NCBI GenBank assembly: GCA_036524115.1
Contig: DATDCY010000176.1
Coordinates: forward strand, 1-40,048
From: a bacterium
GTDB lineage: Bacteria > JAUVQV01 > DATDCY01
Direction of reading: 5' to 3'
Length of the DNA stretch: 40,048 nucleotides
Shown piece after piece: positions 1,600-7,863 of this stretch. Position 1 is the first letter of the stretch. Every line of letters starts with the position of its first letter. The notes below the pieces were generated by a model. It was not told the origin of the DNA and did no database searches. It saw nothing but the letters and a program-made list of their open reading frames with translations. The translations under genes and the position numbers were made by a program.

Positions 1600-2700
1600 G
1601 TGGCCCCGCGCCAGCGCAGGCGACGGAAGGCGGCGCCAAAACGCCGGCTGCGCCGCTGGTTCCGCCGCCAGGACCGCCTGACCCGACGCCTCCTGCTCGC
1701 CGTGGCCGTCCTCGGCGTGATCGTCGCCGCGCTCGTCGTGCCGCTTCGCGACCGGGAGCGCCCGGAAGCGGGGGCTCCGGTTCCGACGGCGGAGACGGCG
1801 GCGCGCAAACCCGCCGAGCGGACGCGCGCCACCGCCAAGGCCCGGCCGGCGGTGGTCGCGGCGCGTCCCGCCACCCGGCCCGACCGCCCGCCGAAGGAAG
1901 CGCCGCCCGTTGCCAGGCCGGCGGCTCCGCCAGGCGCCGCGCACACCGACAAGAGCCCCCGCCTGGCGATCGTGATCGATGACCTCGGGCAGAGGATCTC
2001 GCATCTCGAGGCGCTCGCGGCGCTGGAGCTGCCCCTGACCGTGGCCGTCATCCCCGGCCTGCCGGCGACGGCGCCCACGGTCCGCGAGGCCGGGCGCCTC
2101 GGGCTCGAGATGATCCTGCACCAGCCGATGGAGCCCCGGGAGGAGGGGGGCAAGGACGCCGGGGCCGGTGTTCTGCTCGTCTCCATGAGCGCGGCGGAGG
2201 TGCGCGCCCGCCTCGGCGAGAGCCTGGCCGCGGTGCCCCGCGCGGTCGGCGTGAACAACCACATGGGCTCGCGCTTCACCGAGGAGACCGCCGGACTCGT
2301 CCCCGTGATGGAGGAGCTCAAGGCCCGCGGCCTCTTCTGGCTCGACAGCCGCACGACGGCCGCCACGCGCGGCGCCGAGACCGCGCGGGCGGCGGGCGTC
2401 CCGGTGCTCGAGCGCGACGTCTTCCTCGACGCCGAGGTGAAGCCGGAGTTCATCCGGGCGCAGCTGCGCCGCGCCGTCGCCATCGCGCACGAGCACGGCC
2501 AGGCGATCGGGATCGGCCACCCGCACCCGGAGACGATCGCGGCGCTCCGCGAGCTGCGCGGCGAGCTCCTCGACTCCGGGGTCACGCTCGTGCGGCTCTC
2601 CGCCCTCGTGCCGCCCGCGGCCGGCGCCGGCACCGCCGTCGCCAGCCAGTCGCGTCCGGCGAAGGAGCGCGCGGGACGGACCGCGGTCGCCCTCCCGTAG
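1600..2700 (+). CDS. Divergent polysaccharide deacetylase (YibQ/DUF610) family protein
   Basis: 366 residues starting at GTG 1600, one base after the ctpA stop. Residues 1-30 are strongly basic, 31-48 form one membrane segment, and 50-118 are an Ala/Pro/Arg linker, so the C-terminal domain should lie in the periplasm. That domain begins with RLAIVIDDLG (Asp127-Asp128) and carries the family marks HQPMEP, NNHMGSRFT, FWLDSRTT and IGIGHPHPET. It is a NodB-fold relative; the His and Asp positions suggest a metal site, but the substrate of this divergent branch is not established. The neighbouring Ctp protease suggests a role in envelope or peptidoglycan maintenance (inference). GTG is the only start that keeps the basic-TM N-terminus and the tight spacing. 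Confidence 0.88.
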   Translation: MAPRQRRRRKAAPKRRLRRWFRRQDRLTRRLLLAVAVLGVIVAALVVPLRDRERPEAGAPVPTAETAARKPAERTRATAKARPAVVAARPATRPDRPPKEAPPVARPAAPPGAAHTDKSPRLAIVIDDLGQRISHLEALAALELPLTVAVIPGLPATAPTVREAGRLGLEMILHQPMEPREEGGKDAGAGVLLVSMSAAEVRARLGESLAAVPRAVGVNNHMGSRFTEETAGLVPVMEELKARGLFWLDSRTTAATRGAETARAAGVPVLERDVFLDAEVKPEFIRAQLRRAVAIAHEHGQAIGIGHPHPETIAALRELRGELLDSGVTLVRLSALVPPAAGAGTAVASQSRPAKERAGRTAVALP

Positions 2701-2705
2701 AGACC

Positions 2706-3749
2706 ATGCTCATCCTCGGGATCGAGACCTCCTGCGACGAGACCGCGGCCGCTCTCGTCGAGCGCGGCCGGCGGGTGCGCTCCTCGATCGTCGCCTCGCA
2801 GATCGACGACCACCGCCCCTACGGCGGGGTCGTCCCGGAGATCGCCGGGCGCAAGCACCTGGAGAACCTCGTGCCCGTGACGCAGGCCGCGCTCGCGGAC
2901 GCCGGCGTCCAGCCATCGGAAGTCCGCGCGGTCGCCGTGACCTCCAGCCCGGGCCTGATGGGCGCACTGCTGGTCGGCACGTCCTTCGGCAAGGCGCTCG
3001 CGCTCGGCTGGGGCGTGCCGCTGATCGAGGTCAACCACCTTCACGCGCACGCCCTCGCCATCCTCCTCGCGAAATCCCGGCCGCGCTTCCCCTACCTGGC
3101 GCTGGTCGTCTCCGGCGGGCACACGACGCTGTTCCGCGTGGATTCCCCGCTCTCGCTCGGCGTGCTCGGGCAGACCCGCGACGACGCGGCGGGCGAAGTG
3201 CTCGACAAGGTCGCCAAGTTCCTCGGCCTCGGCTACCCCGGCGGGCCCGCCATCGACCGGCTCGCCGCCGGCGCGAACGTGCACGCCGTGCGCTTCCCGC
3301 GCGGCCTGCAGCGCGCCGCGACCTTCGACTTCTCGTTCTCCGGCCTCAAGACCGCCGTCGTCAACCACGCGCTCGGCACGCGCCGTGTCGAGGGCCGCCT
3401 CAACGACCAGCCCGTGCCGGCCCTCTCCGACAGGCAGTTGCGGGACCTGGTCGCCTCGTTCCAGGAAGCGGTCGTGGACACCCTCGTGGGGACGACGCTG
3501 CGCGCCGCCGCCGCCGAAGGGCTGGCGACGGTCGTCGTCTCCGGCGGCGTGGCCGCCAACTCCCGCCTGCGCGAAAAGATGTCGTTGCAGGGGGCCGCGG
3601 CCGGGTTGCGCGTGCTCTTCCCCGAGCCGGGCCTGTGCACTGACAACGCGGCGATGATCGCCGCCGCGGCCTGGCACCTCGCGCGCCGCGGGCGCTTCGC
3701 CGGCCTGGACCTGCGCCCCGCCGCGAAGATGAAGCCGGGCGTGTGCTAG
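2706..3749 (+). CDS. tsaD: tRNA N6-threonylcarbamoyladenosine transferase TsaD
   Basis: 347 residues, the usual TsaD length. The enzyme moves the threonylcarbamoyl group from TC-AMP to A37 of ANN-decoding tRNAs, together with TsaB and TsaE, in the cytoplasm. Hallmarks: LGIETSCDETAAA at the N-terminus, the metal-binding HLHAH at 111-115 (His111 and His115), SGGHTTLF, GEVLDKVAKFLGLGYPGGP, SFSGLKTAV, SGGVAANS and TDNAAMIA near the end. ATG 2706 lies 5 bases after the previous stop, so translation is likely coupled. The next gene starts 1 base after its stop. Nothing is missing from the family core. Confidence 0.97.
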   Translation: MLILGIETSCDETAAALVERGRRVRSSIVASQIDDHRPYGGVVPEIAGRKHLENLVPVTQAALADAGVQPSEVRAVAVTSSPGLMGALLVGTSFGKALALGWGVPLIEVNHLHAHALAILLAKSRPRFPYLALVVSGGHTTLFRVDSPLSLGVLGQTRDDAAGEVLDKVAKFLGLGYPGGPAIDRLAAGANVHAVRFPRGLQRAATFDFSFSGLKTAVVNHALGTRRVEGRLNDQPVPALSDRQLRDLVASFQEAVVDTLVGTTLRAAAAEGLATVVVSGGVAANSRLREKMSLQGAAAGLRVLFPEPGLCTDNAAMIAAAAWHLARRGRFAGLDLRPAAKMKPGVC

Positions 3750-3750
3750 G

Positions 3751-4935
3751 ATGCCCCCCGTGAGCGGCACCGGCGCGACGATCTACCTCGACAACGGCGC
3801 GACCTCCTTCCCGAAGCCGCCATCGGTCGCGGCGGCCATGTCCCACTTCACGCTCGAAGTCGGCGGCAGCCCGGGGCGTTCCGGACATCACCGCTCCCAG
3901 GAGGCCGCCCGCGCGGTCTTCGCCTGCCGCGAGGCGCTCGCGGCGCTCATCGGCGCGCCCGATTCGCGGCGCGTCGCGTTCACCCTCAACGCCACGCAGG
4001 CGCTCAACACCGCCATCTACGGCATCCTGCGACCGGGCGACCGGGTGCTCACGACCTCGATGGAGCACAACTCGACGATGCGGCCGCTGCGGGACCTGGA
4101 GCACCGCGGCGTGATCTCGCTGGAGGTGCTCCCCTGCGACGGCGCCGGGCGGCTGGACCTGGCGGCGCTCGAGCGCGCGCTGCGCTCGCGGCCGCGGCTG
4201 CTGGCGGCGGTGCACGCCTCGAACGTCAGCGGCGCCATCCTGCCGCTGCGGGAGGTCGGGGCGCTGGCGCGCGCCGCCGGGACGCTGCTGCTCGTGGACG
4301 CCGCGCAGTCGGCCGGCGCGCAGCCGATCGACGTGATCGCGGACGGCGTCGACCTGCTGGCGTTCACCGGGCACAAGGCGCTCTTCGGGCCGCAGGGGAC
4401 CGGCGGTCTCTGGGCGCGCGAGGGGGTGGAGCCGGAGCCCCTCTTTCGCGGCGGCACGGGCAGCAACTCCGAGCTCGAGGAGCAGCCCGTCTTCTGGCCG
4501 GACCGGCTCGAGAGCGGCACGCCCAACGGCGTCGGGCTCGCCGGGCTGCTCGCCGGGGTGTCGTTCATCGCCGAGACGGGCCTCGAGCTGATCCGCGCCC
4601 GCGAGGAGGCGCTGACGCGCCGGCTGATCGCGGGGCTGGGCGCGCTGCCGGGGATCACCGTCCACGGCCCCGGCGCCGACGAGAGACGCGCGCCGACCGT
4701 CTCGGTGACCTTCGAGGGGCTGGTGCCCTCGGAGGCGGGCTTCCTCCTCGAGGAGGGCTTCGGCGTGCTCACGCGCGTCGGCCTGCACTGCGCGCCGGCC
4801 GCGCACCGCACGATCGGGACGTACCCGCAGGGGACGGTGCGGTTCGCGCCGGGGTTCTTCACGACCGAGGCGGACATCGACGCGGCGATCGCGGGCTGCC
4901 GCTACCTGGCGACGAAGAAGGGGAGGGCGCGGTGA
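3751..4935 (+). CDS. Cysteine desulfurase-like class V aminotransferase (EGC type)
   Basis: 394 residues. It is a PLP enzyme expected to take sulfur (or selenium) from cysteine (or selenocysteine) to a persulfide. The PLP lysine is Lys209 in FTGHKALFGPQGTGGLW; upstream are YLDNGATSFPKP, SMEHNSTMRP and the cofactor Asp-Gln pair in LVDAAQSAGA. The catalytic Cys is Cys347 in RVGLHCAPAAH, the arrangement of the NifS/SufS-like branch called am_tr_V_EGC. Its stop overlaps the start of the DUF3343 gene, and selC lies about 550 bases downstream. From memory, comparative work on SelD-bearing genomes links this branch and DUF3343 to selenium use. A GTG at 3760 is an alternative start, nearer the family's usual N-terminus. 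Confidence 0.9.
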   Translation: MPPVSGTGATIYLDNGATSFPKPPSVAAAMSHFTLEVGGSPGRSGHHRSQEAARAVFACREALAALIGAPDSRRVAFTLNATQALNTAIYGILRPGDRVLTTSMEHNSTMRPLRDLEHRGVISLEVLPCDGAGRLDLAALERALRSRPRLLAAVHASNVSGAILPLREVGALARAAGTLLLVDAAQSAGAQPIDVIADGVDLLAFTGHKALFGPQGTGGLWAREGVEPEPLFRGGTGSNSELEEQPVFWPDRLESGTPNGVGLAGLLAGVSFIAETGLELIRAREEALTRRLIAGLGALPGITVHGPGADERRAPTVSVTFEGLVPSEAGFLLEEGFGVLTRVGLHCAPAAHRTIGTYPQGTVRFAPGFFTTEADIDAAIAGCRYLATKKGRAR

Positions 4936-5192
4936 GCGACGCGCCCCGCTTCGCCGTCGCGACGTTTCACTCGACGCACGCCGTGCTCAAGGCCGAGAAG
5001 ATCCTCAAGGACGCGGGCGTGGCCGACGTGCGTCTGGTGCCGGTGCCGAGCCAGGTGTCGTCCGACTGCGGCGTGACGGTGCGCTTCGCGGCGGCGGAGT
5101 CCGCGCGGGCGCGGGAGCTGCTGCGGCCGCTCGCGGACGACCTGCAAGGCCTCTACGTCGAGGCGCCGGGGGGCTGGGTCCCGTTTCAGTAG
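4932..5192 (+). CDS. DUF3343 protein, putative Se/S carrier
   Basis: 86 residues starting at a GTG whose last two bases are part of the previous gene's TGA (4-base overlap), so it is almost surely translated with the desulfurase. The family features are visible: a start resembling FHSTHAVLKAEKILK, a middle SSDCGVTVRF with the single conserved Cys46, and a C-terminal helix plus strand ending in YVE. Pfam names this family a putative selenium or sulfur carrier. With the desulfurase before it and tRNA-Sec after it, the natural reading is that Cys46 accepts persulfide or perselenide (inference). No partner protein or electron donor is visible in the operon. Confidence 0.85.
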   Translation: MSDAPRFAVATFHSTHAVLKAEKILKDAGVADVRLVPVPSQVSSDCGVTVRFAAAESARARELLRPLADDLQGLYVEAPGGWVPFQ

Positions 5193-5470
5193 CGATCCGG
5201 CCGAGCCGCGACGGCGCGGGCTTGTCCCCGTGCCGGGCCACGACCCGGCGGCGCCTGTTCACTTCCGTCTCGCCCTTCGCCCCTCAGCCCGCGAGCGCAC
5301 TCAGCGGCTGCTCGACTGTCAATGCGCCGGCCACACTCAGCGGACACAGCCTGCGGCCGACGCATTATGACCGTTCACAGGCGCCCCCGGGCCGTGGCCC
5401 TGTCACGAGCCTGGCCCTGTGCGAAAGCGTGGCCCGGCACGAGCACGGTGGCGTTTTGCGCCTTCTGCCG
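5193..5470. other. Intergenic region before selC
   Basis: About 280 bases with no credible gene. A 10-mer, CACTCAGCGG, occurs at 5298-5307 and again at 5334-5343 (36 bases apart). No terminator with a T tract and no riboswitch that I recognise. Translated frames here show no conserved peptide. Confidence 0.4.
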
Positions 5471-5476
5471 TATAAT
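5471..5476 (+). promoter_or_regulatory. -10 element of selC promoter
   Basis: A perfect TATAAT lies 11 bases before the first base of tRNA-Sec, so transcription would start 0-5 bases upstream of the mature end. At the 17-base spacing the -35 region (GTGGCG) is poor. Confidence 0.6.
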
Positions 5477-5487
5477 CCTGCCCACAC

Positions 5488-5586
5488 GGGAGCGGATGGG
5501 TCACTGGTGGGCCCCCCGGACTTCAAATCCGGTCGGCGGGCGCTAATCACGTCCGCGGTAGGTTCGATTCCTACACGCTCCCGCCA
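5488..5586 (+). tRNA. selC: tRNA-Sec (anticodon TCA)
   Basis: 99 bases including an encoded CCA (5584-5586). The anticodon stem-loop is CCGGA-CTTCAAA-TCCGG with TCA at positions 34-36, the standard selenocysteine loop. The variable arm is long: GCGGGCG pairs over 7 bp with CGTCCGC. The T arm is GTAGG-TTCGATT-CCTAC, and the D arm is GGGTC/GGCCC. Acceptor GGGAGCG pairs with CGCTCCC; the eighth pair expected of bacterial tRNA-Sec would be G with A, a mismatch. Discriminator is G. The tRNA is charged by SerRS and converted by SelA; selA, selB and selD are not in this window. Confidence 0.95.
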
Positions 5587-5685
5587 CACGCCCGACACCC
5601 GCGCGAACGGCGAAGGCACGGAACGGCAGGGGGACAGAATTCAATGCTGTCCTCCTACGAAAGGAACGAAGAAAGGGGAACGGGA

Positions 5686-5889
5686 ATGCCGTACGTCAAC
5701 GTCCGCATCACCAGGACCGGCGTCACCGCCGAGCAGAAGGCCGCCGTCATCAAGGGCGTCACCGACGTCCTCGTGAAAGTCCTCGGCAAGGACCCCCAGT
5801 CGACCTTCGTGGTCATCGACGAGGTCGACACGGACAACTGGGGCATCGCCGGCGAGACGATCACCGCGCGACGCGCGAAGACGAAGTAG
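5686..5889 (+). CDS. 4-oxalocrotonate tautomerase family protein
   Basis: 67 residues. The start is ATG 5686, giving M-PYVNVRITRTG; after Met removal Pro becomes the N-terminal residue, the catalytic base in this family. GAAAGGGG sits a few bases upstream, and an earlier in-frame ATG at 5644 would bury the proline, so it is rejected. The rest fits the small tautomerase fold: helix AEQKAAVIKGVTDVLVKVLGK, then strand STFVVIDEVDTDNWGIAGE. Such proteins are hexamers of short subunits acting on 2-hydroxymuconate-like enols, but many homologues have unknown substrates; the neighbours here (selC, a lipoprotein) give no pathway hint. Confidence 0.9.
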   Translation: MPYVNVRITRTGVTAEQKAAVIKGVTDVLVKVLGKDPQSTFVVIDEVDTDNWGIAGETITARRAKTK

Positions 5890-6686: not shown

Positions 6687-7766
6687 TCAGCGATCCCCTT
6701 CCGCGATGGCCTTCCCAAAGGCCGCCCAGAATGGGTCGACGCGCGGGTGCTCGAGCGGGCGGGCTCGTCCCCCGTCGACCAGCGTGATCCCCTCGGCCTC
6801 CGGCAGCGTCTCGCCGATGCGCGCGGCCGCGATCCCCTTCGCGGCGAGGCGCGCGAGCACCTCCTGCGTGCGGTGGCGGCGGCAGGTCAGCACGAGCGTC
6901 CCCTCGCTGATGGCGGAGAACGGGTCGATCCCGAACAGCGCGCACACCTTCGCGACCTCTTCGGGCATGGGGATCGACTCGCGCTCGATGCGCATCCCGA
7001 CCCGCGACGCGCGCGCCACCTCGTAGAGGCCGCCCCAGAGCCCGCACTCGGTCGCGTCGTGCATGGCGGTCACGCCCTCGTCGCGCACGCCGACCGACGC
7101 CGCCGTCAGCGCATCCTCGACGACGCTCATCTGCCAGAACAGCCCGTCGGCGCGCCGCGCGAACTCCTCCCCGTGCGCCGCCGCCACGCGCCGCGGGAAG
7201 GTCGCCGCGAACAGCGCGCTCGCCTCGATGGCGGGCCCTTTCGTGATCACGACGTCCTCGCCGGCGCCCGCCAGCGCCGGGGTCACGTAGCGCTCGCACG
7301 GGCCCGTGGCCATCACCGTGGCCCCGCCGATCATCGGGTAATCGCAGCCCTGGTAGCGGGCGGTGTGCCCGGCGACGACCGCGATGCCGAGCTTCTCGCA
7401 CTCCGCGGCCATGCCGCGCCAGAGGGCGACAAACTGCTCCTTGGCGATGCCGAGCGGCAGGTTCAGGTCGATCGTCATCCAGCGCGGCGCCAGCCCCGAC
7501 ACGGCCGCGTCGGAGGCGAGGATGTGCACCGCGAACCACGCGGAGCGCTCCCAGCCGTACTGCGGGACGACGAAGACGGGATCGCACGTGACCGCCATGA
7601 CCTGGCCGCCGCCGATGTCGACGACGCCGATGTCGACGCCGTGCTGCGGCGGGACGAGCACCGCGGGGTCGCGGCGCCCCAGCCGCGGGTAGATGATCTC
7701 CTCGAAGATCTCGGGCGAGATCTTGCCGATCTCGGGCAGGTCGTGACGGGACTCGTTCTGGCTCAT
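6687..7766 (-). CDS. AIR synthase (PurM/HypE-fold) family protein
   Basis: 359 residues from ATG 7766, with GGAGGGAAAG just upstream and a GATAAT -10 at 7785-7790. Layout is that of the PurM superfamily (PurM, PurL, HypE, SelD, ThiL), whose members activate a substrate with ATP. N-terminal half: CDPVF, then HILASDAAVSGLAPRW, the metal and ATP region; then GHTARYQGCDYPMIGGATVMATG. C-terminal half: TAMHDATECGLWGGLYEVA and ALFGIDPFSAISEGTLVLT. These fit a HypE-like group common in archaea and anaerobes without an assigned reaction. It lacks the glycine-rich start with Cys/Sec of SelD and the C-terminal PRIC-type end of HypE. The family's usual DATEGG is DATECG here. Substrate unknown. Confidence 0.8.
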   Translation of the reverse strand: MSQNESRHDLPEIGKISPEIFEEIIYPRLGRRDPAVLVPPQHGVDIGVVDIGGGQVMAVTCDPVFVVPQYGWERSAWFAVHILASDAAVSGLAPRWMTIDLNLPLGIAKEQFVALWRGMAAECEKLGIAVVAGHTARYQGCDYPMIGGATVMATGPCERYVTPALAGAGEDVVITKGPAIEASALFAATFPRRVAAAHGEEFARRADGLFWQMSVVEDALTAASVGVRDEGVTAMHDATECGLWGGLYEVARASRVGMRIERESIPMPEEVAKVCALFGIDPFSAISEGTLVLTCRRHRTQEVLARLAAKGIAAARIGETLPEAEGITLVDGGRARPLEHPRVDPFWAAFGKAIAEGDR

Positions 7767-7863
7767 CGCTTTCCCTCCGCGGGCATTATCCCGACAGGTT
7801 ACGGGGTCGGCCCCCCCTGGGCCCTCTCAGCCGTCCTCGACGACAGCTCCCCCAAGCAACACC

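Follow-up and report, generated by a model that had tools for sequence, protein, structure and literature searches.

A cysteine desulfurase and a DUF3343 protein encoded next to selC: a possible relay to selenophosphate synthesis

The form in which selenium reaches SelD in vivo, and the system that donates it, are described as still incompletely elucidated (PMC13188914). A locus in which genes for a cysteine desulfurase and a DUF3343 protein lie directly upstream of the selenocysteine tRNA gene raises the question of whether the two proteins supply SelD with selenium. The window (the whole stretch of DNA analysed, 40,048 nucleotides) makes up contig 176 of an assembly that comprises 374 contigs and 3.9 Mb, about 95% complete and with 4% contamination, and the locus is composed of four features:

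2706..3749, plus strand: tsaD, a subunit of the tRNA t6A enzyme (TIGR03723, 397.2 bits, cut-off 296.1), in a gene order common to a second genome, G001
3751..4935, plus strand: TIGR01977 (EF2568) family cysteine desulfurase, a selenocysteine lyase-like PLP enzyme (411.7 bits, cut-off 377)
4932..5192, plus strand: DUF3343 (PF11823), a putative Se/S carrier of 86 aa (61.8 bits, gathering score 25)
5488..5586, plus strand: selC, selenocysteine tRNA with anticodon tca (ARAGORN; Rfam RF01852)

The locus and the selenocysteine machinery of its genome

A single base separates the tsaD stop codon from the ATG of the 394 aa desulfurase frame, which in turn shares bases 4932-4935 with the DUF3343 frame, whose start codon is GTG; the four-base overlap reported by the first-pass annotation is thus correct. 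Because of the one-base gap, tsaD, the desulfurase gene and DUF3343 are likely to form one transcription unit, of which tsaD is probably the first gene, with selC (an RF01852 match at 5488-5582 of 71.9 bits, gathering score 47) lying further on. The same annotation had placed selC 296 bases beyond DUF3343: it is indeed the adjacent feature on the same strand, the gap being 295 bases. The unit may be co-expressed with selC; a search of 2600-5800 for sigma-70 promoters and for terminators gave no match, but shuffled sequences lead one to expect only 0.0 and 0.6 of them, so this result is uninformative on co-transcription.

The residues that the proposed chemistry would need are in place, as the first-pass annotation had stated. 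In the desulfurase, the PLP lysine, Lys209, follows GH (GHK) and the catalytic Cys347 lies inside GLHCAP. The enzyme scores 330.9 bits against the model for the selenocysteine lyase SclA (NF040779, cut-off 525), and membership of that group was rejected on this score. Cys46 is the only cysteine of DUF3343, in the context SSDCG. Its column is at least 90% conserved in an alignment of 27 diverse DUF3343 sequences, and it is present in 69 of 69 sequences of the close set. An AlphaFold2 model built from these 69 sequences (mean pLDDT 88.8) is ferredoxin-like, strand-helix-strand-strand-helix-strand-strand, with Cys46 in the loop linking strands 2 and 3, a prediction compatible with a small carrier whose cysteine is exposed. 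With the window DUF3343 as query, no relative was confirmed among viral contigs or plasmids, and no solved structure was matched at E 1.

Is the genome one that uses selenium? The search of the genome that the first-pass annotation had proposed found selD (358.5 bits, over cut-off) on another contig than the window, and selA (594.8 bits) and selB (345.1 bits), both over cut-off, side by side on a third. The selD frame contains a single in-frame TGA, which falls within the active-site region near the N-terminus, and a possible hairpin 3' of it has a z of -2.54 over 48 bases and -0.89 over 66 bases. With selA, selB, selC and selD all over cut-off, the genome is that of a full selenocysteine (Sec) user. 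DUF3343 is present as a single copy, and yedF (TIGR03527) had no match at E 1e-10 either in this genome, at its completeness of about 95%, or in G001.

G001 is the only other genome of the phylum in our comparison set and belongs to the same order and to another family. There the order tsaD, desulfurase, DUF3343, selC recurs, with 66 bases between DUF3343 and selC. Its contig breaks just upstream of DUF3343, and the broken end is identical to the start of another contig, which holds the desulfurase and tsaD, over an exact 141-base overlap. Identity between the two genomes is 67% for TsaD, 68% for the desulfurase and 63% for DUF3343, and 94 of 99 bases of selC match. We have set aside a linkage of DUF3343 and selC by chance on the basis of this conservation, yet two genomes of one order are few. 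A place for tsaD in the selenium system was also considered and rejected: TsaD is not thought to act on selenium, and outside G001 a tsaD match occurs at none of the 75 close DUF3343 loci described below (up to 10 kb searched on each side).

Distribution of DUF3343 relative to selD

If the pair served SelD, DUF3343 would be expected to accompany selD, and this was examined in 192 genomes of 172 families, with tests that make no correction for common descent other than through the spread of the sample. DUF3343 occurs in 35 of these genomes (34 above cut-off), selD over cut-off in 92 and TIGR01977 over cut-off in 29. The presence of selD in 30 of the 35 DUF3343 genomes, as against 62 of the 157 without DUF3343, gives an odds ratio of 9 (Fisher 4.9e-7). 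The association is kept when the source genome (G000) and G001 are left out (Fisher 1.8e-6), and also without the two doubtful DUF3343 rows, G036, which is under the Pfam cut-off, and G179, whose frame is doubtful (28/33 versus 64/159, Fisher 2.3e-6). For the desulfurase family the corresponding figures are 24 of 29 genomes versus 68 of the 163 others.

The first-pass annotation had also called for the pair itself to be compared with selD over many genomes, and the pair proved not to be equally frequent where selD is missing: selD is present in 20 of the 22 pair genomes versus 72 of the 170 others (Fisher 1.5e-5), a pair being a TIGR01977 match (E 1e-80 or better) and a DUF3343 that share a contig and are no more than about 1.5 kb apart, assigned by hand. 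This count includes three TIGR01977 matches below the model cut-off (G042, G064, G122) and G001, entered across its contig break; in a further pair genome, G053, other frames intervene, and without it the figures are 20/21 versus 72/171. For selC a threshold of 57 bits was applied (82 genomes, among the matches listed), since lower-scoring matches include other long tRNAs; on this basis selC is present in 17 of the 22 pair genomes versus 65 of the 170 others; G082 (52.8 bits) and G187 (51.9 bits) possibly hold true selC genes below this threshold. All 25 genomes with yedF over cut-off have selD. Position adds to presence: of the 30 genomes having both selD and DUF3343, 8 have them no more than 5 kb apart, where 0.14 would be expected. 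Of 14 control genomes, E. coli and M. jannaschii were the two that gave a DUF3343 match; both are also among three controls with a selD match, and in two controls selD is over cut-off.

The association has limits in both directions. The absence of DUF3343 from 62 of the 92 selD genomes implies that it is not required for SelD generally and is one route of several. Conversely, DUF3343 is not exclusive to selD genomes, five of the 35 (G043, G053, G087, G089, G188) being without selD over cut-off; these five have no selA at 1e-20 and no selB over cut-off, and in two of them (G053 and G087) DUF3343 is near a TIGR01977 desulfurase nonetheless.

Neighbourhoods in a wider collection point the same way. 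A scan of a genome collection with three close DUF3343 sequences returned 77 loci, of which two, from G001, were dropped, leaving 75 in 72 genomes labelled delta-proteobacteria, Chloroflexi, Planctomycetes, Fibrobacteres and others; at least one genome (L123, which is G121) is shared with the 192-genome sample. Neighbours, defined as tblastn matches of at least 60 bits up to 10 kb, often less, on each side of DUF3343, were desulfurase at 57 loci, YedF at 51, SelD at 16, SelB at 3 and SelA at 2. The most compact case is a locus from Pontiellaceae (L138), where selC, selA, selB, yedF, the desulfurase gene, DUF3343 and selD all lie within 6.5 kb. In the first 50 of the 72 genomes, in listing order and of unstated completeness, selD was matched in 43; one of the seven without a match, that of L139, has a selB match near DUF3343.

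The residues around Cys46 vary in a way that may bear on selD. The motif S-[DENS]-CG is found in 18 DUF3343 genomes, all 18 with selD, versus selD in 12 of the 17 genomes without the motif (n=35; Fisher 0.019), a lead only, as the motif was picked post hoc from the alignment. Two loci, L027 (G011) and L033 (G159), encode a variant of DUF3343 that is extended at its N-terminus, Trp in G011 standing at the position of the Cys of G159; TIGR01977 has no match at 1e-80 in either genome.

Fused forms of DUF3343

DUF3343 occurs in two kinds of fusion. In G120, DUF3343 and SelD form one frame of 420 aa behind desulfurase and YedF frames, with 44.7 bits for PF11823 (cut-off 25) and 374.1 bits for SelD (cut-off 125). 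DUF3343 was found in 9 of the 24 genomes of this order that were searched, representing five genera, and in all nine the gene continues into SelD, with DUF3343 at the front. The fused frames are complete in seven of the nine, that of L168 running off the contig end and that of L171 containing unknown bases. Both the DUF3343 cysteine and the SelD cysteine are retained in the fusions, and a desulfurase-like frame lies upstream in 9/9. That of G120 has a TIGR01977 score (376.8 bits, rated over together with its neighbours); the remaining eight were recognized by eye from the frame end and CAP motif. At L138, the Pontiellaceae locus, DUF3343 and SelD are separate, overlapping frames, and its SelD is the top scorer against the G120 SelD among the other named loci.

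Fusion of SelD to a presumed delivery partner has precedents: SelD is known with N-terminal NifS-like or NADH-dehydrogenase-like domains, usually in its Cys form (Mariotti 2015, PMC4561486). The DUF3343-SelD proteins resemble these in having an N-terminal selenium-delivery partner and a Cys in SelD, and differ in that the fused domain is DUF3343, a word absent from the available text of that paper. We found no DUF3343-SelD fusion in the open-access literature searched, including the accessible parts of PMC5322559 and PMC4561486. The fusions are consistent with a hand-over to SelD.

A second kind of fusion occurs in one of the genomes without selD (G089), at the following places:

L028:1498-2895 and L079:9587-12095: DUF3343-desulfurase fusion with mnmA

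Here DUF3343 (PF11823, 60.3 bits) is joined to the front of an IscS/NifS-type desulfurase in a protein of 466 aa. The desulfurase part passes the IscS subfamily model NF002806 (318.8 bits, cut-off 304) and fails the NifS model TIGR03402 (505.4 bits, cut-off 530.75). The mnmA gene (451.2 bits, cut-off 284) follows 13 bases downstream. The arrangement, seen in one genome, suggests that tRNA thiolation, too, can receive sulfur by way of the DUF3343 carrier.

The acceptor and role of the carrier

In the E. coli IscS-TusA-MnmA sulfur relay, a desulfurase passes sulfur by way of a small Cys carrier to an acceptor enzyme. We propose that the desulfurase and DUF3343 of the window work alike, as a chalcogen relay feeding selenophosphate synthesis, and put the probability of this at about 0.55. 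In this relay, the PLP desulfurase, with its Lys209, would act on selenocysteine or on cysteine and leave the selenium of the one as a per-selenide, or the sulfur of the other as a persulfide, on Cys347. The chalcogen would then be transferred to Cys46 of the ferredoxin-like DUF3343, which would hand it on to SelD at its active-site Sec. The selenophosphate formed by SelD would be used by SelA on the tRNA encoded by the adjacent selC. The differences from the E. coli relay are that DUF3343 belongs to another Pfam family and that the acceptor here would be SelD. As far as sequence can tell, DUF3343 is best read as a Cys-based sulfur/selenium shuttle, loaded in this genome by the desulfurase and discharged to SelD. 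Three findings, its selC-adjacent place, its fusions with SelD, and the DUF3343-desulfurase fusion ahead of mnmA, jointly argue for a route that leads from the desulfurase via DUF3343 to an acceptor, probably SelD here. Weighing against the proposal are the DUF3343 genomes without selD, the sulfur setting of the fusion before mnmA, the location of selD on another contig, the desulfurase score below the SclA cut-off and the many selD genomes that have no DUF3343.

The core of this idea is already published. A role of DUF3343 in selenium trafficking was predicted in 2015 by Lin et al. (PMC5322559), who proposed it as a chaperone beside a Sec lyase and YedF, allowed a role in either Se or S handling, and found no selenium-specific branch of the family; its Pfam name is 'Putative Se/S carrier protein-like'. 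The window system shares with theirs the family, the desulfurase partner, the proposed role and the conserved cysteine, and differs in its place beside selC and tsaD and in its genome, where yedF was not found. A word search of the available text of PMC5322559 gave no mention of SelC, TsaD or MnmA, nor of a fusion found by its authors. The new points are thus the conserved selC-adjacent place, the DUF3343-SelD fusions and the DUF3343-desulfurase-mnmA arrangement. On the desulfurase side, Haft and Self (2008, PMC2276186) called TIGR01977/EF2568 a probable selenocysteine lyase; the window enzyme exceeds the cut-off of this family, with the difference that EF2568 lies in a selD operon and selD of the window genome on another contig. 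SclA of Enterococcus faecalis, proposed to supply SelD from Sec (PMC13188914), is a related PLP enzyme from which the window desulfurase is set apart by its score.

The relay may not be dedicated to selenium. Besides SelD, the carrier could supply MnmA, for tRNA 2-thiouridine, or further acceptors of sulfur, its proximity to selC being incidental. The fusion ahead of mnmA and the five DUF3343 genomes without selD speak for such a double service, and the Se or S role allowed by Lin et al. (PMC5322559) would accommodate it. Against this, the association with selD is strong, selD is within 5 kb in 8 of 30 genomes, and DUF3343 is fused to SelD itself in one order, the mnmA setting being that of one genome; we regard the undedicated relay as rather unlikely for this locus.

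The first-pass annotation's central claim, a selenium delivery pair acting on SelD, stands only in part. Of the two outcomes that it had named as refutations, a genome lacking selD and a pair just as frequent where selD or selC is missing, neither was observed. The selD association and the DUF3343-SelD fusions bear it out; the DUF3343 genomes without selD and the fusion before mnmA do not, and the idea was in print beforehand. A further formulation, which we offer tentatively at slightly less than an even chance, is that DUF3343 is a general chalcogen shuttle domain that also gives selenium directly to SelD, a donor so far missing from the pathway; a desulfurase would load it, and it could be fused to SelD as a carrier arm. 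In some organisms that do not use selenium, it would be fused to an IscS/NifS-type desulfurase and feed MnmA, and the window pair would represent the arrangement in which DUF3343 stays unfused and supplies a SelD that contains Sec, YedF being absent.

A role in sulfur transfer only, with the pair supplying tRNA thiolation or another sulfur product, SelD receiving free selenide and the adjacency to selC being accidental, appears distinctly improbable. It would agree with the location of selD, selA and selB on contigs other than the window, with the failure to find yedF, and with tsaD, a tRNA-modification gene, as the other frame of the unit; it fits poorly with the recurrence of the selC-adjacent place in another family of the order and with the co-occurrence with selD. 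Least credible of all is that DUF3343 is a regulator or scaffold that binds the desulfurase or SelD in the manner of PII or ACT proteins: such proteins, together with microcompartment proteins, rank high in comparisons of the model with PDB folds by Foldseek and VIA-align, and two of the 35 DUF3343 frames lack the cysteine at its place (Trp in G011, none in G128), but none of the matches is strong or specific (best E 3e-3, best Z 6.8), the scores reaching only what a shared arrangement would give, and Cys46 is conserved to the extent given above.

Because the carrier is fused to SelD in one order and, in another phylum, accompanied by a desulfurase next to selC, the question of the donor could be put to the test with a single recombinant protein and two mutants of its cysteines, and the DUF3343-SelD fusion lets the existing prediction of selenium trafficking be tested directly.

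The window continues beyond selC with a gene of the 4-oxalocrotonate tautomerase family (5686-5889, plus strand, 3' of selC; TIGR00013, 85 bits, cut-off 56.9). At 6687-7863, a gene of the AIR-synthase family on the minus strand is preceded by a TPP riboswitch that reaches its start codon (60.8 bits, gathering score 54.3). This gene is below the cut-offs for HypE (82.3 versus 251.6), ThiL (74.0 versus 184.15) and SelD (52.1 versus 125), and behind its riboswitch it is perhaps an unnamed thiamine gene.
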